Assembly: GCA_019448385.1 (NCBI GenBank)
Contig: JAGTXO010000004.1
Span: 62,001-126,000 of the forward strand
Source: Diacronema lutheri
Lineage: Eukaryota; Haptophyta; Pavlovophyceae; Pavlovales; Pavlovaceae
Reading direction: 5' to 3'
DNA length: 64,000 bases
Below, piece by piece: positions 1-64,000 of the stretch. Numbering within the stretch: the stretch's first letter is position 1; each line of letters opens with the position of its first letter. Below the pieces are notes generated by a model, which was not told the DNA's origin, ran no database searches, and worked only from the letters and a program-made list of their open reading frames with translations. The translations under genes and the position numbers were made by a program.

Positions 1-609
1 CTCGGCGTGGATGGACCAGACGAATACCTGCCCCAGCTCATCCACGAGGAAGAGCTGCCGCGTGTGCGAGTGCCAGCGCATGCCCGTGAAGCACACATGG
101 CTCGGGTTGGCGATGGTGATCAACGGCACGCCCGACGTCACGTCGAGCGCGCGGAGCGTCTGGTCGTACGAGAGGGTGAAGAGCAGGTTCTCGTGCGGCA
201 CGAGCAGCATCTCGACGATCCCGAGCGTATGCACCGCCGGGTGCTGCTGCCAGCGCGAGAGCCGCACCTGCCGGCCGCGGATGCTGAGCTGGTATGCTGA
301 GATGCCGCCGCGCTCGTCCGCGACAAAGAGCTCGCCGCTCTCGCCGGTCAGGTGGAGCGCGATCGAGTTGAGCCAGCAGTCGTGGTCGTGCACCGTCTCG
401 TGCAGCGTGTACCACGGGTAGAGCAGCAGCTCGCGCCCCTCGTCCATGTGCCACACGCGCAGCGTACGGTCAGTTGAGCACGACAGCACGAGCTGCTGGT
501 GCACGGCGAGCCCAGTCACCGTGCCGTCGTGCCCGCGCAGCGTCTGCACGCACGCCTTGCGCAGGTCACGCACCCACGGGTCCCACACTGCGCGGCGCGG
601 GCGCGCGCG

Positions 610-678
<69 letters not shown>

Positions 679-1092
679 CGACAGGCGGCGCGGCGCGGCG
701 ACGCGGCGTGGCGCGATGCGGCGCGACGCGTGAGAGCTGGGCGCAGCCGCTGCGCGGCACGGCGCGCGCACGGCTGGCTGCGCAGCGCGCGCGTGCGCAC
801 AGCGGATAGTGCGGTCGGACGAGCCGCTGATGAGGAGCACACCCTCCCTGCCAACGCCGCTCAAGCGTATCGGCATGACGCAGCGCACGGAGCCCGCGTG
901 ACCCTCGAGGTACAACGGCTTGTCCTCGGGCTGCGCGCGGCCCGTGCCGCCGTGCCGCTTCCACCACATGATCTTGCCGTCGCTGCGGCCGGCGAAGAGC
1001 GCGCTCTTCTCGGGCACGTATGTGTGGCATGTGGTCGTCGCGCCGTCGCCCCCGCCGCTGTCGCGGAAGTGCTGCTCGTGCACGAAGTTCAT
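1..1092 (-). CDS. WD40-repeat protein, N-terminal part (runs off left edge)
   Basis: The 5' part of a beta-propeller protein of unknown role. Exon 1 is 1092-801 and exon 2 is 587-1, continuing beyond the window. The 213-bp intron (800-588) starts GTGCGCAC and ends GCGCAG. Splicing joins phase-1 codons into SDRTIRLWDPW, a textbook WD-repeat end. Further repeat ends are seen at STDRTLRVWHM, SYDQTLRALDV and GQVFVWS, so at least four blades are present. The start is the ATG at 1092, 62 bp from the start of the divergent neighbour. The intron carries a 68-nt homopolymer that reads as poly-C on the coding strand upstream of the acceptor. I do not recognise a specific WD40 subfamily. Confidence 0.8.
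611..678. repeat. 68-nt G homopolymer inside an intron
   Basis: An uninterrupted run of G on the plus strand, so poly-C in the minus-strand pre-mRNA of the WD40 gene. It lies 23 nt upstream of the 3' splice site, where a polypyrimidine tract would be expected. The true length is uncertain, because homopolymers this long are prone to sequencing error. Confidence 0.9.
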
Positions 1093-1154
1093 TCACTTTT
1101 CCGCCATCGCCAACGGTTCTGCGGCCGCCAACTCGCAACCTTCAAAATTCAAAA
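1093..1154. promoter_or_regulatory. 62-bp divergent promoter (WD40 gene / coiled-coil gene)
   Basis: Short spacer between two head-to-head ATGs. It ends in an A/T-rich stretch (TTCAAAATTCAAAA) directly before the plus-strand start, which stands out from the GC-rich surroundings. No TATA box is evident. The promoter role is inferred from position only. Confidence 0.5.
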
Positions 1155-1856
1155 ATGGTCGTGGGCGGAGCACGCGCGCGCCTCACGGAGCAGCTCCTCG
1201 CGGCGCTCGAGCAGCTCGATGCGTGCGCGGACAAGCCGCGTGCTGGGCCGGCAGCACGCGTCGGATTCGGTATTGACCGCGCGGCGCGTGCTGGAGCGCG
1301 TCGCGGCTCGCGACCCAACGAGCACGCGACTCGCCTCGCGCCGCACGCGCGCGTTCCAAGGGCGAGCAGCGGGAGCAGAAGCCGCTCGGAGGGTGGCAGC
1401 CCAGACGGCGCGTCTCGACGGCCACCGCTGCGCGCGATCCAGCCGAACGTGCCGAGCACGGCCGTGCGAGCGTTTCTGCCGTGCGCGGCTCGCATCGACA
1501 TCCTGAGCGATGACTCAGAATCGGACGGCTCACCGCGCGCGCGCACGTCGGGCGGCAGCAGCACCGGGCTTGGCCTCGAACAGCCCGTGCGCCGCGCGCA
1601 CGCGCTCGGGCGGGGCGCGCTGCGTGACTTTGAGCGGCACGCGGCGAGCGAGTCGCGCGCGCTGGACGCGCGCATCCGCGAGCTGCGCGACGAGTTCCGG
1701 CTGCGGCTGCACTCGCTCGAGGGCGCGTACGCGCGCGACGTGGCGGCGCTCGGCGCCGAGCTCAGCGCGCGAGTGCGCGAGGAGCGCGCGCGCGGCGCGA
1801 GGCGGCTCGACGGGAGGGCGAGCTACGCGCACGTGCGCCTCGCTGCACGGGGCTAG
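1155..1856 (+). CDS. Predicted coiled-coil protein, unknown function
   Basis: An open frame of 233 residues starting at the ATG at 1155. The N-terminus has a short helix (LTEQLLAALEQLDA). The middle is basic, Ser/Arg/Pro-rich and probably disordered. An acidic patch (DILSDDSESDG) precedes a C-terminal third that is strongly helical and rich in Glu/Arg/Leu with heptad-like spacing (ESRALDARIRELRDEFRLRL). It is divergent from the WD40 gene and followed by two poly-G tracts before the AAA+ gene. The 3' end is uncertain: a GTGCGCCT donor-like site lies just before the stop, so further exons are possible. No family recognised. Confidence 0.5.
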   Translation: MVVGGARARLTEQLLAALEQLDACADKPRAGPAARVGFGIDRAARAGARRGSRPNEHATRLAPHARVPRASSGSRSRSEGGSPDGASRRPPLRAIQPNVPSTAVRAFLPCAARIDILSDDSESDGSPRARTSGGSSTGLGLEQPVRRAHALGRGALRDFERHAASESRALDARIRELRDEFRLRLHSLEGAYARDVAALGAELSARVREERARGARRLDGRASYAHVRLAARG

Positions 1857-2080: not shown

Positions 2081-4631
2081 ATGAACTTTCTCCGGCCGGG
2101 CGTCCAGATGCTGCGTGTTTTCGCGACGCGCTGGTGCCGCGCGGCGGCGGCGGCGACGGCGACGACGGTGGCAAGCGCGTCGATCGCGCGCGCGGAGGCC
2201 GATTCGAGCGCAGAGCGTGCGCGCCTCTTCGTCGAGAGCCGTCTCGCCGCCTTCCGCGCCGAGTTTGCGCAGCGCGGCGCGTTTTCGCTCCCGCCCGTCC
2301 TCGTCGCGAGCACGGCGGACGGGCGCGTCTCGGCGCGCTTCAAGCTGCCGCCCAATGCGCAGCACGTGCCACTACTGCTCGACCTCGTCGATGCTGCCGA
2401 GGCTGAGGCGAGCGCGCAGGGCGCGCAAGGTGGTGGCGCCGGCCCACTGCTGCGCTGGCGGCTGCTCGGTGAGGGCGAGTCGGCGGACGCCGCAGCGGCC
2501 GGGGGCGCGGTCACTTACGTGGGCACGCGCACGCTCCACGTGTGTGCCGAGCCTGTGGATGCGGCCACGAGCGCTGCACGCGGCGCTGCGCTTGGCCGCC
2601 TCGACGTGCGCCTTTCCGTCTCGCGCGCCGCCGAGCAGCCGGGCGCGCGTACCGAGACGACCGAAGAGCGGTCGTCGGATGGGCGCACCGTCACGCGCCG
2701 CACGATCGTCGTCGACGGGATTGGCGCGGCGCGGCGCCAAGGTGCGCGACCCACCGCGGTTCTCGAGCTCACCGTCGCCGGCCCTCCGTGCCACGCGCTG
2801 CCTGGCGAAGGGGCGAGCGAGCCGCGCGGCTGGCTTGGCGGCTGGCGCGAGCGCGCGGCCGACGGCGGCGGTCGCTGGGCGGGCGGCGAGCTGATCGCGG
2901 CGGCGTACGAGAGCGCGCACACGAGCGCGTGCGTTGGCGGGCGCGCGGCCGACACCGCGCCCGATGCATCCGCGGGCAACGGCGGCGGCGGAGGCGGCGG
3001 CGGGCGTGGCGGCTGGTCGGGCGCGCGGGCCCTCGTCGACGTCGACCCGTTCCGCGCGTTGCTCGAGGAGTTTGACCTGCCCGGCTTTGGGCTGCGCCGG
3101 CCAGCAGGCCCACGCGAGCGCGAGCGCGACGAGGGGGCCGACGCTGCTGACGAGGGCGGCTGGGCTGGCGGTTCGCTCTTCGGGCGCGGGCCGGCTGGCG
3201 CGCCGGGCACGTCAGCCGACGCAGCCGACGGCGCAAGCCAGCCGCCACCGCCGCGCACGGCGGCCGAGGCGATCAGCGCGCTCGCCGCGCTGGGCGCGCG
3301 CGTGTATTTGCCGCCGCCAGCCGCCGACGCGGCGCGCGGCGCGCGGCCGGGCGGCGGTGGCGAGGGGCGGCTGCGCGCGCTCCTCGGCCGCGGCGACAGC
3401 GGCGGCGGCGGCGCGAGCGACGCGGGTGCGAGCGACGCGTCCGCGCCCGGCCTCTTCAGCTGGCCGGGCCTGGGTGGCTACTCGGCGGTGAAGGCGGCGC
3501 TCGAGGAGATGCTCCTACTACCGCTCTGCCACCCCACGCTCTACGCGCAGGTGCGCGCCAAGGCGCGCGCGCGCGGGGCCACCTCCTTCGGCGCGACCGG
3601 CGCGCCTGGCCCGGCCGAGCCCGAGGCGCCGCTCGCGCCCGCCGCCATCCTTTTTGAGGGCCCACCCGGCACGGGCAAGACAACGTTTGCGCGCGCGGCG
3701 GCCGCGACAGCTGGCGTGCCCCTCATCTACGCGCCGCTCGAGACGCTGGGCTCGCGCTGGTACGGCGAGTCGGAGGCGCGGCTTGCGCGGCTCTTCCAGG
3801 CGGCGCGCGCGCTCGCGCAAGCGTCCGGCGCGGCGGGAGCGGCGAGCGGCGAAGTGGGCGCGCCCGCCGGCGGCGGCAATGGCGGCGCCATTCTTTTCCT
3901 TGACGAGATTGATGCGCTCGCCATCTCCAGAGACGCGGGTGCGCGCGCAAACCGTCCGCCGTGCGCCGCGCGGCGCGCAGCTCCCTCCACCTTCCGCCCA
4001 CCAACCAACCAACCAACCAATCAACCACCCAACCAACCCCTGCACCACCCCCGGCGCCTCCCCCTGTGCAGAGATGCACGAGGCGACACGCCGTTCGCTC
4101 TCCGTCCTCTTGCGCCACCTGGATGGCATCGACGCGACGCCCTACGTGCAGCCCGCCGAGCGCGCGGCTGACGACGGCGCGCGCGGCGAGCACAGCCGGC
4201 TGGCGGTAGCAGGCGACGCGGGCGTGGGCAGCGCGCAGCCGAACGCGCGGCCGCTCGTGCTCATTGCGGCGACGAACCGCGCGTGCGACCTGGACCGCGC
4301 GCTGCTCTCACGTTTCGCGCTCAAGCTCACCTTCCCGCTGCCCGACGCAGCAGAGCGCGCGGCGATTCTCGGCGTGCACGCAGCGCACCTGAGCGCGCCC
4401 GAGCGCGAGCGGCTCGCGCGCGACTGCGACGGCGCGTCGGGTCGGACGATCCGCGCGGCGTGCGACGCCGCGGAGCGCAGTTGGGCGTCTCGGCTGGTGC
4501 GCGCGCGGATCGCGGGCCGCTCGGTCGAGGCGAGCGCGCCGCCCGCTGCCGAGTACGACGCGGCGTTGCGCGCGCAGTGCGGGGCGGAGCGCCGCCTCGC
4601 CGATCCGCGCGGCGGGCACGTTGAGCGATGA
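2081..4631 (+). CDS. AAA+ ATPase, possibly mitochondrial
   Basis: Exons 2081-3938 and 4072-4631 give an 805-residue protein. The single 133-bp intron (GTGCGCGC...TGTGCAG) has a CCAA-repeat tract before its acceptor. Splicing yields ISRDAEMHEATRR, a typical AAA continuation after Walker B. Walker A is GPPGTGKTT, followed by a substrate-loop-like WYGESEARLARLF; Walker B is ILFLDEID; sensor-1 is VLIAATNR with the arginine-finger region ALLSRF. The Arg/Ala-rich, acid-poor start (MLRVFATRW) looks like a mitochondrial presequence. The first about 500 residues are Gly/Ala-rich with several possible low-complexity insertions. It is a remodelling ATPase of the VPS4/spastin-like general type; substrate unknown. 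Confidence 0.85.
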
Positions 4632-7986: not shown

Positions 7987-8648
7987 CTAGACGTTTTCCA
8001 ACGCCTCGAGCATGACCACGCTGTTACCGCGGACCATCTGCGACACGGCAAGGCGGGAATAGGGCAACAAAGGGCCCGCACGGCAAGGCATGACCACGCG
8101 CACCGCGCAGGGCGCGCATGGCAACGAAATGAGTCAAGCGCCCGCACGGCAAGGCGGGCCATCGGCTGTGCAACGAAGGGCAACGGCGCGCACCGCGCAG
8201 GGCGCGCGCGTGCTCACCACCATGCCAACCTCGTTGTTCTCTGTGAGCGAGACGTGCTCGACGGTCTCATCCAGCACAATGTTCATGAACTGGTCGTACC
8301 CACGCAGGATGCCCGTGAGGCTGCGGTTGCCGTTCAGCTTCACTGCCGCGCGAGGGGCGGAGCAGGAGTGACGCGGCGGGCCGCAGGGGCGCAAGGAATG
8401 GGCGGGCGCGTGACATGGGCGCATCGTCGATGCTACGCGCGAGCTGTGCGCGCCGTGCGAGAAGCCCCGCGTCCCTTACCGGCCAGCTTCTTGTCCATAT
8501 ACCTGAGTTGGAGTGCGGGCAGGGCGCGCGCGCGCGGCGTTGTGAGCCCAGCGTGTGTACGTCCGGCATGTGCAGAAGAGGCACGTGCGGACGCCCTGCA
8601 CGGTGCCTCGGGCGCGCACTTTTTCAAGTCAGGGCCCTTGCCTGACAT
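7987..8648 (-). CDS. SNRPG: Small nuclear ribonucleoprotein G (SmG), four exons
   Basis: Exons 8648-8620, 8502-8480, 8342-8218 and 8037-7987 assemble into 75 residues, against about 76 in animals. SmG is one of seven Sm proteins forming the ring on U1, U2, U4 and U5 snRNAs. The protein begins MSGKGPDLKKYMDKKLA. Sm1 is read at VKLNGNRSLTGILRGYDQFM, and Sm2 at GMVMVRGNSVVMLEAL. Exon 2 is only 23 nt. Intron donors are GTGCGCGC, GTAAGGG and GTGAGCAC, and acceptors are CTCAG, GGCAG and CGCAG. The whole model depends on splicing; every join keeps frame and regenerates conserved residues, so I am confident. Confidence 0.93.
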
Positions 8649-22850: not shown

Positions 22851-24733
22851 CTAGGCGACAATCTCCTTGACGTCGGAGGGCGGCGCGTCCCTGGGCACGA
22901 CATCGCACACGCCATTGTCCATGACGGCGGGCGGCAGCTTGCCCATGCGCTGCACGAGGTAGTGCGCCACACAGAAGATGGCGAGCATCGCGTACGCGAC
23001 GGCGAAGCGCCAGCCCTCGTTCACGCCCTTCTTGTAGTCGGCGACCTCGTGGAAGGAGACGCTGAGCTCGCCGAGGACGGGCGACGAGCCGTCAATGCCG
23101 ACCGGGTTGTTGCCGTGCATGATGCCAAACTCGGAGAAGACCATGGCGATGAGCGAGCCGATGGCTGCGCGGTCGTACCGCGAGTCGGTCAGGTCGCACA
23201 CGATCTGCGTGACGACGATGGAGGCCATGATGCCGCCGCCCGCGGAGAGGTTGAGCACGCCGGGGCGCGCGTCGCCCGAGCCGTTCTTCATCAGGTCGGT
23301 GACGAGCATGAAGATGCCAATGCACAACGCCGGGTAGTGGCGGCGCGCCGAGACCTCAAAGGACTGCTGCACGATCATCAGGCCGACGAAGATGAGGACG
23401 CAGCCGATCGAGACGGGGTCGATGATCGAGTAGATGGTCGGAAAGATGCCGCTCATCAGCAGCACGAAGTAGCTCACCGCGTTGAGCAGCGAGTAGCTCG
23501 CCCTCGCGCCGATCAGCTTGTGGCGCGCGTGGCCGATGTACACGGTGGTCGGGATGATCGAGCCGAAGAGCGCGCCGATCATCGTGCCGAGGCCGTCGGC
23601 GATCATGGCCTCCTTCACGTTGTAGTGGTCGCCCTTGTGCTGCGCCGCCTCGACGTTCTCCATCGTCTCGATGAAGGACTGGAGCGCGACGGGGAAGACG
23701 ATCGCCATGAAGTCCGGCGAGTCCACCAGGCCCTCCATCGGCACGAAGGGGAGCATCGTGTTCTGGCCGGCGAATGAACTCCACGTGCTGATCACCGCCC
23801 CCTCCTGCTCCGCGAAGCTGCCATCGTACCGGCCGGCGCCCGCCCAGCGCAGCGTGGTGCCCACGACGAACATGATGAGCGCCACGCCGCCCGTGCCGTA
23901 CACGCCGCGCCCGCCGTTGGCGAAGAAGCCGGTGAAGCAGAGGGCGAAGGGGATGATGCCGATGATCGGCTCTGCGCCCACCGCGATGACCGGCGCGAGG
24001 CCAAGGTAGACGAAGCCGACCGAAGCGATCGGCGCGTACAGCGCGGCCTTGGACGTGTTGTCGCGGATCAGGTTGCCCAGCCAAAAGCCGCTCACCTCAA
24101 AGATGCCGCCGATGAAGTTGGCGGAGCAGGAGCCGGCCCAGACGCGGAACGCGAACTCGTCCGGATCGGCGATCGACGAGTACTTGAAGCACAGCGGCAG
24201 GATGACGGAGAAGGCCATGACAAAGCCGGCCGGCGTGTTGATGCCGTACGGCAGCGCGGTCACCTCCTGGCGGTCCTCATAGTGCGCAAGCTTGAAGGCC
24301 ATCCACGAGTACCAGAGGTTGCCAACTGCAAGCGCGATCGCGACGCCCGGCCCAACGCGGCCGAACACGACGTTGCCGAACGCGGCAACGTGCGCTGGCG
24401 TGATCGGCGCGCCGAGGATGAGCGCGAGCTGCGGCACGAAGAGCATCGCGCCAAAGATGCCGAGGAGAGAGGACAGGTTGTCGAAGAAGAGCGCGGGCCA
24501 CGCATCGAGGTCGCCCTTGCCGAAGAACTGGTAGTTCCACTTGATCGGCCCAAAGATGGGCACCTTGCCTGCGGCGCGCGGGGTGGGCGTGGTGGGTGGT
24601 GGGTAGGCGGACGGCGCGGCGTGCCGCGGGCGGGCGGGTGGGCGCGCGGGGGAGTAGTGTGGGCGCACGCGCGCGTCTCGCGCGCACCGTCGTTCGGGAC
24701 GCGGTTCGGGTTCGAGAAGAGCGACTGCATCAT
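22851..24733 (-). CDS. NCS2-type nucleobase (xanthine/uracil-like) permease
   Basis: Exons 24733-24688 and 24568-22851 (119-bp intron, GTGCGCGC...CCGCAG) give 587 residues. The join reads NRVPNDGKVPIFGPIKW. About 12-14 hydrophobic helices follow, as in the NCS2/AzgA superfamily that imports purines, pyrimidines or related compounds with a cation. Recognisable parts are LPYGINTPAGF (helix 3 region), EPIIGIIPFAL, the acidic FIETMENVEAA of the helix-8 substrate region (Glu in ET-EN is typical) and the polar helix-10 region HGNNPVGIDG. The N-terminal exon encodes just 15 residues. The substrate cannot be told from sequence alone. It is a plasma-membrane candidate for organic nitrogen uptake. Confidence 0.85.
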
Positions 24734-31900: not shown

Positions 31901-33531
31901 CGCGCCGCGCGCGCCCGGCCGCGCGCCGCGCACGCGCGCCCACGCCGCGCAACGGCGCGGACCCGCGCACTCCCCATCCGTCCTCCCCATCCGTCCTCCC
32001 CGCCCGCCCGCCCGCCCGCCCGCCCGCCCGCCTTGCGGTGCGCAGGCGGCGTGGGCAAGGAGACGCACCAGCTCGAGCTGCCCGTGCCGGCGATCGAGCG
32101 GTACGAGGCGCGCGGCAAGCGGCAGCTCCCTGCCGAGTGGGTGCTCATGTCGGCGCGCGCCGGTTTTAAACGCTTCTGGACGCCCGCGCTGCGCGACGCG
32201 GTCTCGCGGATCGACGCGGCGAAGGCGGACGCGGAGGGCGCGCTCGGCGCGGAGCACCGCGCGCTCTTCCGCCGCTTCGCGAGCCGGCACGCGCTCTGGG
32301 CGCAGGCCGTGCGCTGCGTTGGCGACTTTGACTGCCTCCAGTCGCTCGCCGCTGCATGCGCGTCGCTACCGGGCCTCACGCGCCCAAAAGTGGTCGCGCG
32401 CGGCGACGCGACCGGCGGCCGGCCGCTGCTGCGCGTGCGCGGCGGCTTCCATTTGCTCGCGGCGGCGGCGGCGCCCTCCGCCTCCGCCTTCGTCGCCAAC
32501 GACCTCGCGCTCGGCGGCCCGCGCGACGGCAGCTGCGGGGCGGACGACGCGGGCGGCGATGCGGCCGATGAGCCGGTCGTCGCGATCGTGACGGGGCCCA
32601 ACATGGGCGGCAAGTCGACGCTGCTGCGGCAGAGCGCGCTGCTCGTCATGATGGCGCAGCTCGGCTGCCATGTCCCCGCCGCGCACGCCGAGCTCACGCC
32701 CGCCGACGCGATCTTCACGCGCGTCGGCGCGGCAGACCGTATCCTCGCGGGGCAGTCCACGTTCCGCGTTGAGCTCGAGGAGACGAGCGCGATCCTGAGC
32801 AACGCAAGCGCAGACTCGCTCGTCATCCTCGACGAGCTCGGTGCGCGCGCCGCGTCTCGCCGCGCCGCCACTGCCGCCCGCACGCCCGCCCGCCGCCCGG
32901 GACGCCGCGCGCACACCGCGCACGCGCGCGGGGCGCGCGGCTGACGCGCGAAAGCGCGCGCGCGTTGGCCACCTTCAACGCGGCAGGGCGCGGCACGGCC
33001 ACCTTTGACGGGATGGCGATCGCGCATGCGGTGCTGCGCCGGCTGGTCGACACGGTCGGTTGCCGCACGCTCTTTGCCACGCACTACCACCTCCTCGCCG
33101 AGGAGCACGAGACGAGCGCCAGCGCCAGCGGGCGCGGCGGGCGCGGCGCGAGCGTGCACCGGATGGCCTGCCGCGTCGACGAGCAGACGCGCGAGGTGAC
33201 GTTCCTCTACCGCTTCGAGCGCGGCGCGTGCTTGCGCTCGCACGGCGTGAATGTCGCGCGCCTCGCCGGGCTGCCCGCGCCGCTCCTCGCCTCCGCCGCC
33301 GAGCGCTCGGCGAAGCTCGAGCGCGTCACGTCCGCCGCGCGCCCCGCGGGCGCGCGCGCCGCGCGCACGCGCGCGCGCGCCGCCGAGATTGCGCGGCAGG
33401 TGGCGGCGGCCGCCGCCGCGCTCGCGAGCGCCGCGCAGGCGGAGGAGCGCGACGCATGCGCGCGCGAGCTGCTCGCGCTGCAGGCGGAGGCGCGCGCCCT
33501 TCTCGGCGCGGCAGCGGGCGACGCGCCGTGA
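28997..33531 (+). CDS. MSH6: DNA mismatch repair protein MSH6
   Basis: Exons 28997-31886, 32046-32840 and 32987-33531 give 1,409 residues. MSH6 pairs with MSH2 (MutS-alpha) to recognise base mismatches and small loops. The N-terminus starts with a PCNA-binding PIP box, QASIRTFF (residues 3-10), then about 390 disordered, charged, Ala-rich residues. The mismatch-contact motif is KFYELFEDD (Phe415, Glu417). The clamp and lever regions follow, then Walker A TGPNMGGKSTLLRQ (about 1147), the signature STFRVELEETSAIL, Walker B VILDELGRGTATFDG created by the second splice, and the ATHYH histidine. Both introns (159 and 146 bp) start GTGCGCGC; the first has a CGCC-repeat tract before its acceptor. 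Confidence 0.96.
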
Positions 33532-34735: not shown

Positions 34736-35924
34736 CGAGGGCAGGCTCATGACGTGCGCGAGCTCAACGCCGTCCTTGCCTGCGGCGCAACCATGCCGCA
34801 CGACGCGCGTGGGCGGGGGCGGGGGGGCGGGGTGGGGGGGGGGGGTGGGGGGGGGGTGCAGGCGAGACGTGAGCGGGCTGCACGAAGCGCGCTGCGCGCG
34901 AGTCGACGCACCTGGCTCAACGCCGGAGAAAACCCACTCGATCTGCTGGCACTCGTCCGGCGTGAGCTGTGATTGCCGCTCGCGCCCGTACGCGAGCACC
35001 GGTTCGAGCGCGACGCACGCGCCGGCCGTGAGCGCGACGACGTCGCCGCACGTGAGCGATCCTTCCTCTCGCGCGCGCTTGCCCAGCTTGGTACCGCCCC
35101 CTTGCGCAGGCGCCTGGCAGACGAGCGCCGCATCCATCGCCTACGCGCGCACACGCGAAAAGCGGGCGTGCAGGGTGCCATGCCGCGGCGCGCGGCGCCG
35201 GGCTGGGCGGGGGCCGGTTGGCGGCGCGCGGCGGGCCGCTGCCGGACCTGGGTGGGGTGGGGATGGGGTTGGGGGGGGGGGGGGGGGGGGGGGGGGGCTC
35301 GGGACGCACGCGCAGAGCGCGCGCATGGGTTGCGCGCACTTTGCCAATGAACGAGTCGATGAGGTAGTTGATGTACTGCTGGTCTGACTTGAACTCGGCC
35401 TGCCCGCAGTACTCCACCTCAATTTCGTATTCCCAGTCCTCGTTCATGGCGGTCTCCCACGACGGGCCCGACTTCACCTCGGTGAGCTCAAACTTGAAAA
35501 GGTTCTTGTGCACAAAGGTGTGCCGCTTCTTGTGCCGCACGACAGAGAGCGGCGTGCTGTCCGCCGCCGTCGGCTTCTCCGACGAGGCCTGAAGCCGCAC
35601 CGGGTGGTGCGTGTCGGTGCCGAAGACGTCGAACGTTCCAAGCTTGAGCTTGCGCAAAAACGACACTCCCTCGGGCCCACCACGCGTCTCGCGCACGCCG
35701 CTCACGTGGACGAGGTCGGAGGACGTCACTGTCACGGGCTTCTGGCTCCACGCCGGGTTCGACCTGAGCTTGCGCAGCAGCTCCTCAAACTTGTCCGGGT
35801 CGATCTCGCGCACGCGCGCCTCGAGCTCGACCTCGCTCGAGCCGCCGTACCGTGAGAACCATGCGTAAAGCTTTGCTCGCGTCTCAGGCGCGCGAAGCGA
35901 CTGCGCGACCATGCTGTTGTTCAT
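34643..35924 (-). CDS. mRNA 5'-triphosphatase (tunnel-type, Cet1/viral class)
   Basis: Exons 35924-35340, 35140-34912 and 34779-34643 give 316 residues. Exon 1 carries the enzyme: a YAWFSRYG start, SEVELEARVREID (first metal-binding E-x-E strand), TSSDLVHVSG, RHKKRHTFVHKNLFKFELTE (Arg/Lys-rich phosphate contacts) and WEYEIEVEYCG (second E-x-E strand). This fits the triphosphate-tunnel metalloenzymes that remove the gamma phosphate of nascent mRNA before capping, as in fungi, protists and large DNA viruses, not the cysteine phosphatase of animals and plants. Exons 2 and 3 (no family recognised) come from clean GT-AG joins with poly-C-rich introns (199 and 132 bp) and are less certain. Confidence 0.8.
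34811..34857. repeat. Interrupted G-rich tract in intron 2 of the RNA triphosphatase
   Basis: Nearly pure G on the plus strand (poly-C with a few interruptions in the pre-mRNA), upstream of the acceptor at 34780-34781. Confidence 0.8.
35271..35297. repeat. 27-nt G homopolymer in intron 1 of the RNA triphosphatase
   Basis: Poly-C on the coding strand, about 40 nt after the donor and 130 nt before the acceptor. Confidence 0.9.
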
Positions 35925-37481: not shown

Positions 37482-39137
37482 CTAGCGGGCCGTGCGTGCC
37501 CTTGCGAATGCGGCGGCGAGCGCGGCGGCGAGCGCGAAGCCGGCGCCAAAGCAGAGCAGCGGGCTCCGTCGCCGCCCTCGTGCCACCTCCGCTCCCGTCG
37601 GCGGGTCGAGCGGCAGCGCGGCCGAACCGACGAAAAAGGGGCAGCTCAACCGAACCGGGTCGCCCTCGCGAGCGCCCACCGCCGGCCACACGCGCGCGGA
37701 AAGAGGCTTGCGTAGCCGCGTGGCCATGCTGCCAACGTCGCAGTAGAGCGCGGCGAGCTGCTCCGCGCTCGTCGCACCGGGCACGACGACCGTATCAATG
37801 CCCGTGCCGCACACTGCCGAGTTGAGAAGGAGCGCGCTGATTGGGAGGCCTCCGCGCGCGGCGAGCGCGCCAAGCCCTGCGTCCTCGGTCTGCGGCAGCA
37901 CTGCGCCACCGCAGCACGCGCGCGCGGTGGGGCACGTGAGCGGCGGGCACGCACGGCGCGCGTCACGCTTGAGCGGGAGGGGGGGGGGGGGGGGGGGCGA
38001 AACGCGCGCCGCAGCTGTGCGCGCACTGAGCCCGCAGTAGCCGACGAGGCGGAAGGGCAGCCGCTTGAGCACGGACGTGACGAGCGCGCACACGGCGGTC
38101 GTGCCCGCGCCGCCAAATGCGCCGAGGCCAAGCGACTCGAAGGCGAGGACGAGCGACTCGTCTGCGCGCGACGCGGACGCAACCGATGAATCGGTTCCGG
38201 CAAAGACCACGCCGTCAGAGAGAGCTTCAATGCGCTCGCCGAGCGCGTCGAGCTGGCCGACGAGGAGCGCAAACTCCTTCTCGAGCTCGTGCGACGCGGC
38301 GCGCAGCACCGCGCTCCCGACCTGCGCGTGCGCAGCGCCGTTCGGCTCGGCCGCCTGCTCCGCCGGCTCGACCGCGCGCCGCGCGCGCGCGAAGGCGCGC
38401 ACGAGCAGGTCCGAGTTCTCGCACGCGAAGGCGAACGCGGGCGCGCGCCACGCGCTACCCGCCGGTGAGAGCCGCTCCGCAGCCTCGCCCGGCGCGGGCG
38501 CGTACGCGCCCGGGAAGAAGGGCGTGCCCGGCCCGAGCTGCGCGGTGATCGCGAGCTTGAAACAGAACGGCGCGCCAGCGAGCGGGCCGTCGATGACGAG
38601 CCCACCGGACGCGCGCGTCGCCGCGTTGAGCGCGAGGATGAGATCGGCGCACTCGCGCGCGCGCTCCAGGTCGGGCAGCCCGTCCGCGTCCGTTCGCATC
38701 GCGACGGACGCAAAGAGCCGGCTCGTCGTGGCGAGCGCGCGCACAAGCACGCCGTCGGTCAGGCGCGCGTCGAGCTGGCCGACCGAGCCAATCACCGCGA
38801 TGCCGCTGCCGAGCGCACGCTCGAGCGCGGCGAGGCGCGCGTCGAGCTCTCGCAGCTGCGCGAGCGCGGCGTCGGTCGCCGCGTCCGCCCACTGGTCAAA
38901 TCCGTTCGTCGCGACGCGCACCATCTGCAGCGCGACGCCCTGCGCGCGCAGTTCGGCGATCGCCGTGCGGAAGAAGGCGGCGGACGCCTCGAGGCGCGCG
39001 CAGAGCTGGCCAAAGTTTGGCGCCGAGATGAAGAGCGTGATCGCGCGCACCTTCATGGCGAGCCGGCGAGCGACTTCCTGGGTGGGGCCGCGCAAGGAAA
39101 AGCGCGCGGCTGCAAGCGACACGTTTTCGAACGCCAT
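37482..39137 (-). CDS. DUF711/UPF0210 family protein
   Basis: Exons 39137-38027 and 37900-37482 (126-bp intron, GTGCGCGC...GCGCAG, carrying a 19-nt poly-C) give 509 residues. Family features: MKVRAITLFI start of the domain, RVATNGF, the Asp/Gly-rich central sheet, then YCGLMLPQTEDAGLGALA formed by the splice, LLLNSAVCGTGIDTVVVPG and RLRKPLSARVWP. Bacterial members form PFL-like barrels of unknown function. The C-terminus ends in a hydrophobic segment (LCFGAGFALAAALAAAFARA), unusual for the family and suggesting a tail anchor. The start could be 39137 or, more conservatively, the Met at 39056; 39137 overlaps the start codon of the divergent gene. Confidence 0.88.
   Translation of the reverse strand: MAFENVSLAAARFSLRGPTQEVARRLAMKVRAITLFISAPNFGQLCARLEASAAFFRTAIAELRAQGVALQMVRVATNGFDQWADAATDAALAQLRELDARLAALERALGSGIAVIGSVGQLDARLTDGVLVRALATTSRLFASVAMRTDADGLPDLERARECADLILALNAATRASGGLVIDGPLAGAPFCFKLAITAQLGPGTPFFPGAYAPAPGEAAERLSPAGSAWRAPAFAFACENSDLLVRAFARARRAVEPAEQAAEPNGAAHAQVGSAVLRAASHELEKEFALLVGQLDALGERIEALSDGVVFAGTDSSVASASRADESLVLAFESLGLGAFGGAGTTAVCALVTSVLKRLPFRLVGYCGLSARTAAARVSPPPPPPLPLKRDARRACPPLTCPTARACCGGAVLPQTEDAGLGALAARGGLPISALLLNSAVCGTGIDTVVVPGATSAEQLAALYCDVGSMATRLRKPLSARVWPAVGAREGDPVRLSCPFFVGSAALPLDPPTGAEVARGRRRSPLLCFGAGFALAAALAAAFARARTAR
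37979..37997. repeat. 19-nt G homopolymer in the DUF711 intron
   Basis: Reads as poly-C on the coding strand, in the donor-proximal part of the intron. Confidence 0.9.
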
Positions 39138-40504: not shown

Positions 40505-41363
40505 TCACTCGCACGATTCGAGCTTGAACATGCCGGCGCAGCAGCGCTTGTCAACCATGAGCACCTTGTGCACGTGCACGCACATCTTGAGCTCGCCCTG
40601 GTCCACCACGGGATCGGCAAAGAGTGCGGGCTTCTCTGAGCGCTCGGGAGGATGCTCAATACGAAAGCCGACGACCGCGCCCTGGTCCTCCGCCGCCATG
40701 TAGGCGCACATGTGCGGGGTCATGGCGGCACCGACGACGAGGTGCTCGTGGTCGTTGAGGTACTTGCGCGCGATGGGCTTGAGCGCTTCGAGGTCCTCGG
40801 GCGTGAACTCGTGCCAGAAGGACCCGCTCGCCATCGAGAAAAGCCAATCGCCCTTGCTGTCAAGCTTGAGCATCTTGTGGCAGCTCGCGAGCTTCTTGGC
40901 GTGCGCGTCCGTGTCCGCGACCGAATTGGTGAGCGCGTCTCGCGCACGGGGCTCGACGACGATGCTCGCACCATCGCTCTTGAAATCGCAGTTGGTCGTC
41001 TGCTTGGCCGTGCGCATGTTGTGCAGCGCGCTGAGGAGGCGGTCGTACTCGGCGCGCGCATTCTCATCGGTCTGCATGCGCATCTGGATGCGTGGGAGGA
41101 GTGACAGCGCGTTCTGGTTGGGCGTGCCAAGCCGGTCGGTGACGATGACGGCGCCCGGCTCTGCCTCCAAGTTCTGGCGGCGTGCAGGTGACGCGCGGAG
41201 GGCGCGCGATAAGTTGCCAGGCGGCACGTCGGATGTCGTGCAGCGCACGGCCATCGCGCCACCTGCGCGGCTCGGCGCGCACGTGGAGGTTGGGATGCAG
41301 GCCGTTGGTCATCTGCACAAACTGCTCGTCCAGCGCGTGCTCCAAGGACTTTGGGCCGGTCAT
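40505..41363 (-). CDS. Uncharacterised soluble protein
   Basis: Exons 41363-41283 and 41173-40505 (109-bp intron, GTGCGCGC...CGCCAG) give 249 residues. It starts MTGPKSLEHALDEQFVQMTN. The second exon has balanced composition and clear secondary structure, for example PGAVIVTDRLGTPNQNALSL, WLFSMASGSFWHEFTPEDLE, ARKYLNDHEHLVVGAAMTPH and KMCVHVHKVLMVDKRCCAGM. Several His and Cys near the end could bind metal. No signal or TM segment. I recognise no family. An alternative unspliced start at 41254 is possible, but the spliced form removes an Arg-rich stretch unlike the rest. Confidence 0.65.
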
Positions 41364-47408: not shown

Positions 47409-50400
47409 CTAACTGCCCACGGCCTCTGCCCGGCGCAGCGCGTCTGCCTGGTCCAAGAGTGCAGCAATGGCGAGCAGCTGCTCCGTGTGCGCGCGCTGCA
47501 ACTCTGCGTGCGAGAGCCGGAGGGACGTGAGCTGGCGCGCGCCATCTGCACGTCACGCGAGGGCACGGCGCGCGTGAGGCGGACATGGCGTGGGCGCAGT
47601 GAGCGCACCGGCCCACCGACTCGTCGTGCGCGGCTCGAGCGGCGCGCACCTGCGAGCCCGACGAGCGCCTTGTTCGGGTCAGTGAGCGCGTGCAGCTTGC
47701 GCTCGAGCGCGCCCTTGGCCGCGTGCGCGGTCGCAACAGCGGGCGCCTGTGCGCTCAGCTTTGCGCGCGCGCGCTCGGCCTCGAGCCGGCGGCGGGCGCA
47801 CAGCGAGGCCGCCTCGCCAGCAGCGGCACGCGCTCTCGCCGCCCCGCGCCGCAGGTCGGCCAGGTCCACCGCGGCGACGGCGGCGAGGCGCGCGACGGCC
47901 GTCAGCCCAGAGGCGGAGATGACAGCGACGCCAAGGCGCTCGGCCGAGTACGGATCGAGCAGGGGCACGCGTAGACGCATGCGCTCGGCGGCGAGCGGCG
48001 GATCTGCGCTGGTCGGCCACGGCTGCGCGGTCGCGTGCGCAGGCGCAAAGCTCGCGCCGCGCGACGGCGTACGGCGCACGGGCGAGCCGTGCACGCCGGC
48101 GGCCGGCTGCGCGAGGGGGAGCAGCGCGAGCGAGGCGGTGGCGAGGAGGGCGCCTTGTGGCACAGCGCCGCCCAGCGCCACGAGCGCAGCCGGCGGTGGC
48201 GCCTGCAGCTGCAGCGCGAGCTGTGGGCACACAGAGGGGAGAGACACGCGCGCGCGCGGCGCGCGTTGGCGGAGCGTACGAAGGGGCGCGCGGTGCGCAG
48301 AGAGGAGGCGTGGCCGTCGCGACAGGCGACGCGCGCCGCGCGCACCTCGGCCGATTCGGCGCCAGCCGCGCCGAGCAGCGCACGCACGTCGACGCGGAAG
48401 GCGAGCGTCGCGCCGCCTCCCGACCCCGCGCCGGCCTCGCCGACGGCGTGCTCGTGCGCCGAGCGGAGCGGCACGGCCAAAGCCCGAGGCGACGTGGCGC
48501 CGCTCCTGCCAAGCGCGAGCGCTCCCGTCGCCTGCGCGCCGCCCGTCGCGCCCCACAGGCTCGCGCGGAGCACGGCGCGCCCGTCGGCCGCGGTTGCGAG
48601 CAGCTCGGTCGACGCCTCGAGTGCGACGACGGTAAGGGAGACGACGAGCTCGGAGGCGCGCAGCGCGGCGCTCGCGGCCGCCGCCGCGTCCTCGCGCGCC
48701 GCCGCTGCCCGCGCCACCTCACGCGCGGCGGTGCGCGCCTCATGTGCGGCAGCAGCGCTCGCCGAGCCCGCGGTGTGCGGAGCCGCTTCCATGTGTGCGC
48801 GCCAGCTCTCGGCGACGCTGTCGAGCGCGGCGCGCACACGCGGCGCGGCACCGGCGCGGTCGGCCGCCGGCGCAATTGGTGCGTGGGTGGCGAGCAGCGC
48901 CCGCTGCGTCCACTCGAGACGGGCACTGATTTGCGCGGGAACCTGCACGGCAAGGTGCGCGGTACGCAGGGGCTCGGAGAGAGCGGCGAGCAGAGCGACG
49001 TCCGCCGCACTCGGCTGCGCGGCTGCTGCTCGAAGCGGCGATCCCACGCCCGGCTGCGGCTGCGGCTGCGGTGCGTCGCCGTGCGCCGGCAGCCGCGACG
49101 CGAGCACCTTGAGCGCAGCCGCGAGCATGGCCGCGCCCTCCTCGGCGGCCGCCGCCTCAAAGGCGCTCAGCCGCACGGCAGGTGGCGACGGCGGCGCCAC
49201 GCGCCGCCCGCTCGCGCCGGAGCCGCCGATGGCCGCGCCTGCGTCGCCCGCGCGCGCAGCGCCGACCCCGCCGCCATCGCCGCGCGCGAGCGCCGCCTCC
49301 GCCGTCGCGCGGCGCGCGGCACGCGCGAGCGGCAGCGTCGCCGCGTGCAACGCAGGCGCGAGCTCCCTCGCGCACCAGCCGATGGCCTCGTCAACCTCCG
49401 CGCGCGCGGCGGGCTGTGCGGGCAACCATTGACTGAGGTGCGCTGGCGCGTCGGCGTACTTCTCGCATAGCGCGCGCATGACGGCGGGCAGGCCCCAGTA
49501 GCACGCGCCGTCGTCGGCCGCTCGACCCGCCGTGTCTGTCAGCCGGCCGATAAAACGCGCGTCGAGAAATGCGACGAGGACGTGCGCGCTGTGGCGCAGC
49601 TCGGCGGCGCGCTGCGGCCTCACGATGGCAGGCGCGCTGACGGCGGCGGATGGGACGGCAGCGGACGCGGAGCGCATCGAGCTTGGCAGCAACTGCTGCA
49701 GCCCGCCGGACGGCGGCCGCGCGGCGACCGCGGCGCTGGGCGGCAACGCGGCGGGCTCGGCTTCTGAAGGCGGAGGCGGTGCCGGCAGCTCGGGGGCGGC
49801 AAGTAACGCTGCGGCCATTGCTGCGGGTGATCGCACATCGCGCAGCACGGGCAGGCAGTGCGCCACCGCCGCCGGCCGCGGCTGCGGGCACAGGCTGAGC
49901 AGTCGCGAGCTGATCGCCTCCGCCTCCGCCTCCGCCTCCGCCTCCGCCTCCGCGTGCGCCTCCGTGTCTTCATCAAAGCCCGAGTTGGCGCACGCGCCCG
50001 CTGGCAACGCCGCATCGCGACTCCCGCCCTTTCCGCCCTTTGCGCCGCGCGGCTGCTGTGCGGCTGGCGCGCGCGCCGAGCCCGGCGGCGCAAAGGGCGC
50101 GTCGCCAACGCGGATCGCCACGACGCTGAGCGGAAGGCCGCCATCGCTCTCACGACAGCCATCGTTCTCAGGACAGCCGTCGTCGATTGCGCCGTCTGCG
50201 CGCTGCGCGCGTATCGACGGAACGCGCGCGTCGACGAGTGCAGGACGATCCGGTTCCGTCGCGCTCGCGCAGAGCAGCGCGGGCGCAAGCGAGTGTGGCA
50301 GTCCGGCTGCGACGAGCAGCGTGCGCGAGCACAGCCGGAGGCAGAGGAGCGCACGCTGCGGATCGTCGTCGCCGCGGAGCAGGCCCGGTGGGTCCGCGCC

Positions 50401-52840: not shown

Positions 52841-54420
52841 TCAGGCAAAGGTGAATGCGGCGCCCATCGCCTCCAAGCCTCCTTCACCGGGCGCTGGGCT
52901 CACGCGGCTGTAGACGCGCGGCGACGCCTCGGTGAGCGCGCGCCACTCGAGCACACCTCCGCTCGCCACCGGCACGTTCCCGACTGTCTGAGCCGCAAAG
53001 TCAGTGTCTGCAGCAACGCGCTCACCGCACGCGAGCGCAGCGTAGGCGGGCGCGCGCCCTTCGCACGGCACGGCCACAACCGGCGTCGACGAGACCGCGT
53101 GCCCCTCCACGCGGTGCCACGCCGCGCCCACCGGCGCGTGGTCGAGCAGCGCATCGATCGCCCCCTGGACGTCTGCGTGCACCACACAGTCAGCGAAGGA
53201 ACGCAGCTCGACCGCGGCACCAAAGACAGGCGCGCCGTACCGCTTCTGCACCGTCCGCCTGCGGTCGGGCCGCGCTTCCGCCTCGCGCGCGGAGAGCGTC
53301 ACCGCCTGCACGCCGCCGAGCAGGACGGAGCGCTCTGCATCTGCGAGCAACCCCGCAAGAGAGTCGCCGTGCACCGACGCGACGAGAGCGACGCCGCGGC
53401 CGGCGATCGTGCGCGCGGCCTGGCACTCCTCCTTGCTCGAGATCTCGTCGATCACCACGAAGTCGGGCGACTGGTTCTCCACCGCCTCCAGCATCGCCCT
53501 GTCGGCCAAGCTCGGCGCGCGGCGTGAGCGCGGCGGCGTGCGCGCGCGGAAACGCGCGCGGCGATGCGCGCGCACTTGTGCTGGTGCGCGGAGCTCTCGG
53601 CGGTAAGCACGCGCGCGTTGCCAATCGCGCCGTGCGGGACGACGGCCGTGCCGGCGATCTCGAGAGACTTGTCAACGATCACAACCACACGCGCATCGCC
53701 GAGTGAAAGAAGGCGTGCGAGCTCGCGCAGCGCGGTCGTCTTGCCCGTGTTGGGCGTGCCAATAAGGAGGAGCGAGCGGCTCGCAAGCTCGGCGACAGCG
53801 CGCGACGCCTCCGCCTCCGACCCAATCGGCGACCCGCCCGCGAGAAGCGGCAGCACGTGCCCCTGGATCGTGCGGCCGACGCGCGCGGTGATGGCGCACG
53901 TGCCGCCGCGAATGGTGTGCACGGAGCGCGAGATGCGGTGGAGCGTCCCGTCCACGCCCGTGCGCCGCGCGTGCGCGCCGAGGCCGTCGAAGAGCGGCGC
54001 GAACGGGCGGAGGTGCTCGTCATCGACGAGCTCGTTCGAGCGGAGCACGAGCGACGAGCCACCGGCCGCGGTCGCAAACACGAGCTCGCACCGCCGGCCG
54101 AACGCGAGGTAGAGCTCCTTGAGCACGTGACCGTGCTCGCGGAAGGCGTGCGCGACGGCCTCGGCGATGGACGCGCGCATTGGCCCGTCAGGCAGCCGGT
54201 CGAAGAGCAGCTGCATGTCGGCCCGATTGGCGGCGTCCTGCTCGGCGCGCGGCGCGGCCGTCGGGTCGGCGAGCGCCCACGCGACGCGCGTGCGTGTCTC
54301 GACGTACTGCACCAAGCGCGGTGTGGCGTGGTGCCCCGCGTCGCCGCCGCGCCCGCCCCCGCGTCCGCCCCAGCCGCGCCCGCCCCTGTGATGCGGGCGC
54401 GCAGCCGTCTCTCGCTCCAT
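52841..54420 (-). CDS. Ycf45/SpoIIIAA-type P-loop ATPase, probably plastid
   Basis: Exons 54420-53576 and 53498-52841 (77-bp intron, the shortest modelled complete one) give 500 residues. Features: RLVQYVETRTRVAWALADPT, the region ELYLAFGRRCELVFATAA, VDGTLHRISRSVHTIRG (typical SpoIIIAA/Ycf45 'HRIS' segment), Walker A LLIGTPNTGKTT, VVIVDKSLEIAG, then the splice gives AHQHKAMLEAVENQSPDFVV with Walker B VVIDEIS and KEECQAARTIAGRG. Ycf45 is plastid-encoded in red-lineage algae or nuclear-encoded and plastid-targeted in plants, where it is needed for plastid development. The N-terminus is Arg/Gly-rich without an obvious ER signal, so targeting is unclear. Confidence 0.88.
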
Positions 54421-57861: not shown

Positions 57862-58535
57862 CTAGACGACGTCCGCGTGGCGCTGATCTGCAACCAGCCG
57901 TCTGCCAACGCGGCTGTACGCGCCGACGCCGCTCTCGCGGGGCTCGCGCTGCGGTCCGAAGAGCGGGATGTCCTGCAGCTCGCGCTTCATGCACAGGTAC
58001 TCGCCGAGCAGCGCCATGCCCACCAGGCTGCCGCTGTTGACCGCCCACCACTCCCAGCTCGACGGGAAGCCGCCATGCTGCCAGCAGAAGAGGAAGTGCA
58101 TCAGGTGGAAGGTGGCGGTGAAGTCGAGGCACTTCTTGGCGCGCTCGACGATCACGCACAAGATCCCAGCGCTGCGTGCGCGCGCGCCACGCGGCAGGCG
58201 GCGAGCGCGCACCGCGCGCACGGGTGAGCGAGCGCGCGCGTGCGCGCGCGCGTGCGCACGGCGCGGCGAGGCGCGCGACGGTGGCAGCGCTTCGCGGGCG
58301 CGCACCCGACGACGGCGTTGATGATGTACGCGACAAAGGGGATCCACCCGGTGGCGAAGGCGAGCCGGACCGCGTTGTGCGAGAAGAGCTGGCGGAGCGA
58401 CACGGCATGCAGCGGCGTGCCCGTCAGCGCGGTGAGGACGCACACCCACACGCCGAGGTCGAGGTACATGAGGCTCTGCACGCACATGATCTGGTACACG
58501 ATCAGGTACGGGTCGAAGCCCGGCGCGTAAAACAT
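57862..58535 (-). CDS. SYS1: SYS1 Golgi trafficking membrane protein
   Basis: Exons 58535-58306 and 58171-57862 (134-bp intron, GTGCGCGC...CGCAG) give 179 residues, against 156 in humans. SYS1 is a four-helix Golgi membrane protein that recruits ARFRP1/ARL3-type GTPases. Recognisable: FYAPGFDPYLIVYQIMCVQS (animal: WDPLLILSQIVLMQT), ATGWIPFVAYIINAVV, then from exon 2 RAKKCLDFTATFHLMHFLFC and FPSSWEWWAVNSGSLVGMAL with GEYLCMKRELQDIPL. The join gives VVGAGILCVIVERAKKC. Divergent from a plastid-type membrane protein, 63 bp apart. Confidence 0.93.
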
Positions 58536-59335: not shown

Positions 59336-59800
59336 TCACTCGAGCTCAAACTGCACGGCCGCGCGCGCCTTGAGAATCGGCTTGATCGCTTCCGCGATCA
59401 ACTGCTGATGGTCTGCGTGCGTCTGGTAGACCTTATAGTCGTTGATGCTCTCAAAATCCACCGTCGCGCAAAAGTCGAAGTTGCCTGTCGGCTGGAGGCC
59501 TGCGTCGTGGTTGCACTGGATCGCCTTGATCTCGGGGATGCGCGCCTTCAAAGCGCGCAGCCCATCTCGGACGGCTTGCCGCTGTGTCGCCGTCGCAGTC
59601 TCGACTGCGCGCGGAGTGGCAGGGGAGCCGGGCGGGGGCGGGTGTCGGGCGAGAAAATGGGGAAAAGGGGGCGCGATGCGGCGCATGCACTGCCGGCATC
59701 AAGGCAATGAGGGCGTGCTTCCGACCCCGCACGAAGCACGCCCTTCCTCCTTCGCAGAGCGCGCACCAAATTGGAACATCACCACATGCCGGATCGCCAT
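59336..59800 (-). CDS. Stress-responsive A/B-barrel (Dabb) domain protein
   Basis: Exons 59800-59767 and 59604-59336 (162-bp intron, GTGCGCGC...GCGCAG) give 100 residues, standard for Dabb proteins. The start MAIRHVVMFQF is the classic first strand with the conserved His; then AVRDGLRALKARIPEIKAIQ, GLQPTGNFDFCATVDFESIN and DYKVYQTHADHQQLIAEAI. Dabb proteins are dimeric ferredoxin-like barrels, some of them cyclases or stress-induced. Role here unknown. Exon 1 is only 34 nt. Head to head with the TPR protein, 40 bp between ATGs. Confidence 0.9.
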
Positions 59801-63382: not shown

Positions 63383-63445
63383 CGTGAGGCGGCCGGCTGT
63401 CAGTCGGGAGCATAGGGTTGCCGTCGGACAGCGGGACTGGCCGGT

Positions 63446-63481
<36 letters not shown>

Positions 63482-63657
63482 CCAAGGATGGGCTGTGACG
63501 CGTCATGACGCGGGTTTTTGGTGTCACGTCATGACGTCACGCGTTATGACGCGTCATGACGCGTCACGCCGTCGTTCACTTTGAGGCAGTGACGTAACGC
63601 GACTGGCTACTACAAAGAAGTGACGTAGCGCGGCCTGTTGTACACAGTTCCGGGTCA
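63383..63657. promoter_or_regulatory. Divergent promoter with poly-C tract and bZIP-type palindrome cluster
   Basis: C homopolymer at 63447-63479 (G on the coding strand of the OGT-like gene). Downstream are TGACGCGTCA at 63496-63505, 63547-63556 and 63557-63566, a perfect TGACGTCA at 63532-63539, and half sites TGACGTAA (63590) and TGACGTAG (63621). These match the ATF/CREB-type bZIP site family. The density is far above the rest of the window; function is inferred. Confidence 0.6.
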
Positions 63658-64000
63658 ATGGCGACTCGCATGGAGCCGTGCTACTTTTGGTCGACGTATG
63701 GCACGAACACGATCTATCTCGACCGCGTCGCGCCCCAGCTCCTCGGAGTGCAGCACGCTGCTGGCGGGAGCGAGCGCAACTGGTCGCTCCAGGGGCGGAT
63801 CAACGGCAGGGACCGCGGGCGGCAGTCGACTGCCGTGCTTGCGCGCATCGAGGCTCGCCTGGAACCAGAATCTTGTCGACCGCAGAAGGCAGCGCGCAGC
63901 TCGCCGCACAGCAGCGATCCAGCGCGTGAATGCGCGCAACGGTGCGCGCGCAGTGCCCGCCCGCCCTGCGCCGAAGCCCTACCCTTTGCAGGACAACGAG
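63658..64000 (+). CDS. Partial gene at right edge, unknown
   Basis: The ATG at 63658 opens a frame reading MATRMEPCYFWSTYGTNTIY, LDRVAPQLLGVQHAAGGSER and RIEARLEPESCRPQKAARSS. It stays open to the window end. A donor-like GTGCGCGC at 63942 and a CTTTGCAG acceptor at 63984-63991 suggest a 50-bp intron with a second exon starting at 63992. The N-terminal 50 residues look genuinely coding, with aromatic residues and normal composition; beyond that, I am unsure. No family recognised. Confidence 0.5.
   Translation, partial: MATRMEPCYFWSTYGTNTIYLDRVAPQLLGVQHAAGGSERNWSLQGRINGRDRGRQSTAVLARIEARLEPESCRPQKAARSSPHSSDPARECAQRCARSARPPCAEALPFAGQR

Follow-up and report, generated by a model that had tools for sequence, protein, structure and literature searches.

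The closest described counterparts of the intron starts considered here are in Mamiellophyceae. In the passages on splice sites cited here, introns of Ostreococcus lucimarinus lying outside chromosome 2 have an atypical consensus, GTGCGTG (PMC2483917), and canonical introns of Micromonas have AG|GTGCGT (PMC3879977). Other reports, likewise for the parts cited, concern GC donors, which represent 56% of 241 curated junctions in the haptophyte Emiliania huxleyi (PMC4028052), and GC-AG introns, which reach 39.6% in Aureococcus and 22.2% in Micromonas pusilla for an average of 1.3% over 61 species, the U1 of Aureococcus and Micromonas being the standard AUACUUACCUG (PMC3033335). In Saccharomycotina, the section cited describes a switch from A to U at intron position +4 (Parker et al. 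2023, PMC10581693). We analysed the 5' splice sites (donors) of the alga Diacronema lutheri, starting from a stretch of 64,000 nucleotides (positions 62,001 to 126,000 of contig JAGTXO010000004.1, hereafter the window), for which an earlier reading, the original prediction, had proposed that an extended consensus, GTGCGCGC, takes the place of GTRAGT. As judged from genomic sequence, the nuclear donor of D. lutheri is G|GYRCGC, with about half of the introns starting with GTGCG, about a fifth with GC and about a tenth with GTRAG. Among the papers listed by our literature searches, we saw no study of donor sequences in D. lutheri or other Pavlovales.

The GC content of the window is 70 to 77% in 4 kb steps, and the part of the genome paper on strain NIVA-4/92 cited here gives 73.25% GC for 43,502,671 bp in 103 contigs, the longest of 3.042 Mb; our genome-wide searches covered 43,492,796 bases in 103 contigs. 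All introns were called from genomic sequence, by protein alignment, gene finding or joins read by eye. The core of the evidence is a set of 34 introns from 16 genes fixed by protein similarity (fixed introns). The spliced aligner had flat costs and no donor preference, and accepted any GT or GC donor with an AG acceptor; when boundaries were left wholly free it often slid off GT-AG, so that exact joins depend on this requirement. Eight genes were aligned to PDB proteins, namely monomeric isocitrate dehydrogenase (11 introns), MSH6 and GSK3 (2 each), RPT2 (1), and ACAD11, uL13c, class II DAHP synthase and NAA50 (1 each). Ten further introns come from seven Rab-type genes, out of 13 with a Ras-family match in pieces. 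The 24 introns gathered before the Rab genes, 19 of them outside the window, are called the early subset. A WD40 gene was left uncounted because it has no close PDB relative, and a NeuB-like gene was dropped: against a distant homologue, forcing GT-AG gave GTGGCGACCC..CAAG, free boundaries gave other joins, and the gene finder chose GTGCGCGC.

GTGCG starts 18 of the 34 fixed introns, followed by GCACG (4), GTGAG and GCGCG (3 each), GTACG (2) and, once each, GTGCA, GTAAA, GTGTG and GTAAG; GTRAG accounts for 4 of them. Position by position, the donors have G (26) or A (8) at +3, C (28), A (5), T (1) and never G at +4, G (32) or A (2) at +5, and C (24), T (4), G (4) or A (2) at +6, with G at -1 in 24. 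The pair CG occupies +4/+5 in 27 introns, 23 introns have exactly GYRCGC, and 15 of the 16 genes contain a donor with C at +4. All 34 acceptors are CAG, although the aligner requested only AG and CAG makes up 32.5% of AG sites at large, which independently speaks for the correctness of the joins. GTGCG is also the commonest GT pentamer of the window (583 of 5,718 GT sites, 10.2%), and represents 9.4% of 27,698 GT sites in the 304 kb given to an unsupervised gene finder (the window, 200 kb downstream and 40 kb of contig C9). Against this background of 9 to 10%, 18 out of 34 indicates that the core is real, and the excess over other GT sites that the original prediction had made its own control is present in the fixed introns. 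The same prediction had counted GTGCG in 16 of 24 modelled introns, 13 of which have coordinates that can be checked, and the exact GTGCGCGC in 13. The core stands (18/34; 15/24 in the early subset; 12/19 outside the window), while the longer motif is much rarer than the claimed half (8/34, 7/24 and 4/19, respectively). The replacement of GTRAGT is thus retained for GTGCG and abandoned for exact GTGCGCGC, and the consensus is revised to G|GYRCGC, GC donors included.

The preferences at individual positions go beyond base composition. At GT sites in general, +4 is C in a proportion of 0.37 and G in 0.41. With +3 held at G, C is found at +4 in 22 of 26 fixed donors (0.52 expected, p=0.0005) and G in none (0.24 expected, p=0.0008); with +3 held at A, the corresponding figures are 6 of 8 (0.39) and 0 of 8 (0.36). 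Given CG at +4/+5, C follows at +6 in 23 of 27 donors (0.51 expected, p=0.0003), which exceeds composition, and given C at +6, G follows at +7 in 17 of 24 (0.52 expected), a marginal effect (p=0.046). In the early subset, GTGCG donors have C at +6 in 13 of 15 cases (background 0.59, p=0.02) and, as a moderate effect, CGC at +6 to +8 in 7 of 15 (0.18, p=0.011), this triplet being found at 4 of 14 non-donor GTGCG sites within the aligned introns.

A particular class of fixed introns comprises those with a GC donor (7 of 34; GCACG 4, GCGCG 3), which the GT-only reading of the original prediction had missed. They are found once among the 11 introns of isocitrate dehydrogenase, once among the two of RPT2, and five times among the ten Rab introns. 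In three Rab genes (our loci L042, L043 and L044), alignments restricted to GT score 32, 29 and 52 points below those that also admit GC, and with GC donors the protein is restored as FKIK|TME, GNK|ADL, TS|SYYRG and VAK|DFA. At the level of alignment, these donors look unlike slack of the aligner; as allowing more donors can only raise the score, we take this as support and not as proof. The exon ends in AG before 6 of 7 GC donors but before 7 of 27 GT donors (p=0.007), and A at +3 is found in 4 of 7 and 4 of 27, respectively (p=0.037). Such compensation is expected if U1 still reads positions -2 to +3; at donors that lack pairing at +2, the exon apparently contributes to recognition. The evidence for exon signals, which had been suggested for GTGCG donors, is weak at GT donors and strong at GC donors.

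Gene finding gave a less sharp picture than the fixed introns. In a flat model, in which all GT and all AG were scored equally, GTGCG donors have CAG acceptors in 43 of 60 cases versus 99 of 189 for other donors (one-sided p=0.006), and of eight donor classes tested, GTGCG alone shows this association. The GTGCG share is 29 of 76 when strong exons and CAG are required, and 14 of 51 under a different strict filter. The flat model recovers 19 of the 24 early-subset donors (two of the 24 are GC), a slight undercount which is no independent test, as most genes were chosen from the output of this model. When each of ten dinucleotides was made the obligatory donor, GT gave the best score (16145 versus 15864 to 16076) with no site model learned, subject to the reservation that GT had been used in training the coding models. 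After learning splice signals, the model gave a logo (118 introns) with G at +3 in 83%, C at +4 in 76% and G at +5 in 84%, which serves as an illustration only: expectation-maximization (EM) with GC as forced donor drifted into CGCGC repeats (2.59 bits versus 3.24 for GT), and the learned logo is therefore not relied on.

Several points weigh against the consensus or its proportions. GTGCG represents only 60 of 249 introns in supported genes of the flat model (24%), a low share that we ascribe to the false introns which this model surely includes. The gene finder over-predicts coding sequence: self-training with coding models of order 5 and of order 2 to 4 did so, and retraining on strong exons alone lowered the coding part to 231,363 of 304,000 bases, for a published 61.2% in the part of the genome paper cited above. 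EM allowing both GT and GC produced no clean GC class, its 25 GC donors (most often GCCGC and GCCGG) being apparently spurious. The eight PDB-aligned genes were selected from GT-only gene models, whereas the Rab genes were selected otherwise, so that GC donors are under-sampled in the former and the GC share is uncertain. Four of the 34 joins, those of the three SmG introns and of RPT2 intron 1, were read by eye, and the Rab alignments had RAB1A as query. One NeuB intron (GTGGC) and the second intron of Rab gene L048 were omitted as ambiguous; with both, GTGCG amounts to 18 of 36. Finally, the p-values carry no correction for multiple testing and treat introns as independent, which is overstated since 11 of the 34 come from one gene.

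The question arises as to which component of the spliceosome could read such donors. One gene for the U1 small nuclear RNA (snRNA) was found (E 1.7e-10, under the Rfam cut-off). Its core ACUUACCU, which pairs with +1 to +6, is kept, and its 5' part (CCACUUACCUUUC / CCACUUACCUU) differs from the standard sequence at the usual positions 1, 2 and 11. The suggestion that U1 may have changed is thus unsupported for the segment reading +1 to +6, and U1 does differ at these three positions. The single U6 gene found keeps UACAGAGAAGAUUAGCAUGG, and its ACAGA box, which the original prediction had proposed to inspect, is the standard ACAGAGA. Genes for U2 and U4 are present, and the presence of U1, U2, U4 and U6 together with AG acceptors characterizes the introns as U2-type spliceosomal; a search for U5 gave no match, nor did its controls. 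As anticipated, pairing of GTGCG-type donors with U1 is predicted to be poor, with an energy of about -8 kcal/mol for AAGGUGCGCGC compared to about -16 for AAGGUAAGUGG or AAGGUGAGUGG (the GUAAGU and GUGAGU forms), assuming that U1 starts as GCCACUUACC. Among protein factors, an open reading frame (ORF) resembling METTL16, with an NPPF motif, matches PF05971, and SNRNP27K matches PF08648 (L035, C9:1026655-1026804), keeps QFMNR and ends in LKGGLIRGDTVK. There are two PF05971 proteins, L032 (C82) and L033 (C75:386189-387145), of which one is presumably like eukaryotic METTL16 and the other like bacterial RlmF. The genome also contains one LUC7 match and two zf-U1 matches. The U1 and U2 genes (L001, L003) share an AAATAG box some 24 bases upstream of where the RNA appears to begin, as seen by eye, which is perhaps an snRNA promoter.

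The account that we favour, and consider about equally likely to be right or wrong, is that G|GYRCGC donors result from GC pressure, with +4 selected at the ACAGA box of U6 after hand-over from U1. The pressure of a 73% GC genome would move each donor position to the G or C form that an ordinary spliceosome still accepts. A change of T to C at +2 would be tolerated when the exon-end AG and A at +3 hold U1 on; G for A at +3 would retain a wobble with U1; G at +5 would be retained, as U1 and U6 each offer it a C to pair with; and C for T at +6 would represent a lost pairing. Position +4 would be the exception: it is occupied by C and never by G, despite the frequency of G in the genome and its ability to wobble with U1. 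U1 favours A, then G, at +4, yet G is found in none of the 34 donors and C in 28, which argues that +4 is not set by U1. Selection could take place at the next step, where the central A of the ACAGA box may be better accommodated opposite the pyrimidine C than opposite another purine; this preference could also have its basis in altered proteins or modifications. In the part of the Parker et al. article cited here, the central A of the human box is N6-methyladenosine and faces +4, and METTL16 is associated with A at +4 in yeasts (PMC10581693). C at +4 in the presence of METTL16 departs from that rule, which tells against our account. As the RNA cores that read intron starts look normal, part of the donor signal is apparently recognized by something other than base pairing alone.

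The first alternative to be weighed is that donors resemble GTGCGCGC merely through a CGCGCG-rich genome and loosely chosen joins. That GTGCG leads the GT pentamers of the window, and that EM drifts to CGCGC when GC is forced, are in its favour. The window has 107 occurrences of GTGCGCGC, a number never attained in 100 dinucleotide shuffles (71.8 expected) but close to the 99.9 expected from an order-5 model, so that there is no over-representation at that order. We nevertheless hold pure composition to be very improbable, given the absence of G and the excess of C at +4, which persist with +3 fixed, and CAG acceptors that were not asked for. Mobile introner elements could also have spread a single donor sequence, and in the passage cited here Micromonas introner elements have AG|GYGCGT donors, with 53% GC in IE-A1 (PMC3879977). 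However, an all-against-all search of the 34 fixed and 260 predicted introns, with the low-complexity filter on, gave 22 pairs, which were either self-matches or predicted introns that are almost identical and belong to a single repeated element, with no family among the 34, and this is the least credible of the explanations considered.

Other alternatives involve the splicing machinery itself. U1 may have co-evolved with the donors, its altered 5' end (CC for AU at the usual positions 1 and 2, probably with a GCC start, and U at 11) pairing with G at +7 and A at -3, or as a bulged GCCAC with GUG(C)GC. The U1 sequence CCACUUACCUU and the enrichment of G at +7 after C at +6 are consistent with this, as is A at -3 in 14 of 34 donors (versus 13%); the similar AAATAG-box spacing in U1 and U2 suggests, by eye, a start at G; and when the 64 possible start triplets are ranked by their pairing with 24 donors relative to background, GCC comes fifth. 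Since a rank of 5 out of 64 is weak, other G/C-rich triplets doing better, and since C at +4 is left unexplained and the U1 start is deduced, we regard this scenario as unlikely. A second, diverged U1 gene, or an edited or modified U1 base, could read C at +4 directly: as no more than 41 of 277 candidates were given a score in the Rfam search, a diverged copy could escape it. A DNA search with U1 at E values up to 10 gave a single locus and no second copy in the genome, however, which makes this possibility quite improbable. As in Saccharomycotina, +4 might have switched after METTL16 or SNRNP27K was lost. The tail of SNRNP27K after QFMNR does differ from that of the human protein, but the residue at the M141 position is, by the same comparison, M, the METTL16-like ORF has its NPPF motif, and both families are present in the genome. 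Moreover, the Saccharomycotina switch goes to U and not to C in the section cited (PMC10581693). This candidate was rejected on the presence of both gene families, and is hardly credible.

Going beyond the GC-pressure account, a more specific claim can be made, tentatively and as one that is probably too strong: in a spliceosome that has METTL16, SNRNP27K and the standard cores of U1 and U6, the base preferred at +4 would have changed from A to C, with G excluded, so that +4 would be read outside both U1 pairing and the METTL16 rule, while the outer 5' bases of U1 would have shifted to match G at +7. If true, +4 would have a third state, C, in addition to A and U. As +4 is a current test case for the selection of intron starts by U6, a lineage that combines C at +4 with normal snRNA cores and with the two known +4 factors would be a natural counter-example for testing the rule. 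In practice, introns of D. lutheri and similar GC-rich algal genomes may be mis-called by gene finders that accept only GT or have been trained on GTRAGT.

Within the window, all 13 donors named by the original prediction do read GTGCGCGC. The flat model uses 9 of them and leaves the remaining four, and the learned model, in a partly circular way, uses 12, the exception being the SmG join at 8619, which was confirmed by reading the sequence. Many joins had been said to be forced by conserved protein; this is borne out for MSH6, by alignment to the solved 2o8b, and for SmG, by eye, while the SYS1 family remains the prediction's own assignment. The two MSH6 introns are on the forward strand at 31887..32045 (acceptor CGCAG) and 32841..32986 (acceptor GGCAG, inside DELG|RGTATFDG); both have donor GTGCGCGC, and both are found by alignment to solved MSH6 and by the flat gene finder. 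The SmG gene, on the reverse strand, has three introns read from the sequence. Intron 1 (8503..8619, 117 nucleotides (nt)), missed by the gene finder, has donor GTGCGCGC after AAAAA and acceptor TCAG, and joins MSGKGPDLKK|YMDKKLA by comparison with human SmG. Intron 2 (8343..8479, 137 nt) has the classical donor that had been announced for it, GTAAGGGA, which the flat gene finder likewise chose at 8479, and acceptor GCAG. Intron 3, which had not been named (8038..8217, 180 nt), has donor GTGAGCAC and acceptor GCAG, and joins GMV|MVRGNS.

Other introns with donor GTGCGCGC come from the flat gene finder. An AAA-ATPase-like gene on the forward strand has one at 3939..4071 (acceptor TGCAG), joining FLDEIDALAISRDA|EMHEATRRSLSVLLRHLDG in what we take to be an AAA motif. 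On the reverse strand are introns at 35141..35339 (CGTAG), 37901..38026 (CGCAG) and 47546..47649 (TGCAG), the SYS1 intron at 58172..58305 (CGCAG), and the Ycf45 intron at 53499..53575 (ACAG), which joins SSAHQHK|AMLEAVENQSPDFVVIDEI, presumably a motif of that family. Four candidates, also on the reverse strand with donor GTGCGCGC, are less secure. That at 24569..24687 is weak, being found by the learned model only, as are 41174..41282 and 48221..48345, for which the flat model chose 41227 (GTGCCGCC) and 48330 (GTCGCCTG), respectively. At 59605..59766 both models use the donor but differ in acceptor, giving lengths of 201 (flat) and 162 (learned), with exon scores of only 2 and 16 to 20.

Some features of the sequence are recorded in their own right. 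Predicted genes at 22851-28852 of the window (reverse strand) and at C75 241230-243602 (L029, counted from the window start) share predicted introns that are 98 to 100% identical, which is a recent duplication or a mobile element. A unit of 128 bases occurs twice, with 99% identity, at 25704-25966 inside a predicted gene, and pure runs of G or C lie at 611-678 (68 bases), 1996-2033 (38) and 63447-63479 (33). The monomeric isocitrate dehydrogenase gene (C75 171920-176019 from the window start, L022-L023), with 1itw as best PDB match (E 1.6e-285), has one GC-AG intron among its 11; we take the enzyme to be of bacterial type.

Compared with Mamiellophyceae, which are green algae while D. lutheri is a haptophyte, the likeness resides in G at +3, C at +4 and G at +5 as the commonest donor (GTGCG in 18 of 34, the next, GCACG, in 4). 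The differences are at +6, where D. lutheri has C (24 of 34, T only 4) in place of the T of GTGCGT, and in the exon, where AG is weak before GT donors (7 of 27). The branch-point motif CTGAC of Mamiellophyceae is present in the last 60 nt of only 2 of the 34 fixed introns, and CTNAC in 7 (antisense control 0 for each). Like other GC-rich algae, D. lutheri combines high GC with GC donors and AG acceptors, and 7 of 34 is far above 1.3%, albeit in a small and uneven sample; GC donors nevertheless are a minority in this sample, and U1 reads CCACUUACCUU where Aureococcus and Micromonas have AUACUUACCUG. As in Saccharomycotina, +4 has left A while the ACAGA box of U6 is unchanged, but the switch is to C, with METTL16-like and SNRNP27K genes present. 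D. lutheri thus joins a known kind of donor set, its own features being C at +6, a weak exon AG at GT donors and a changed U1 5' end.

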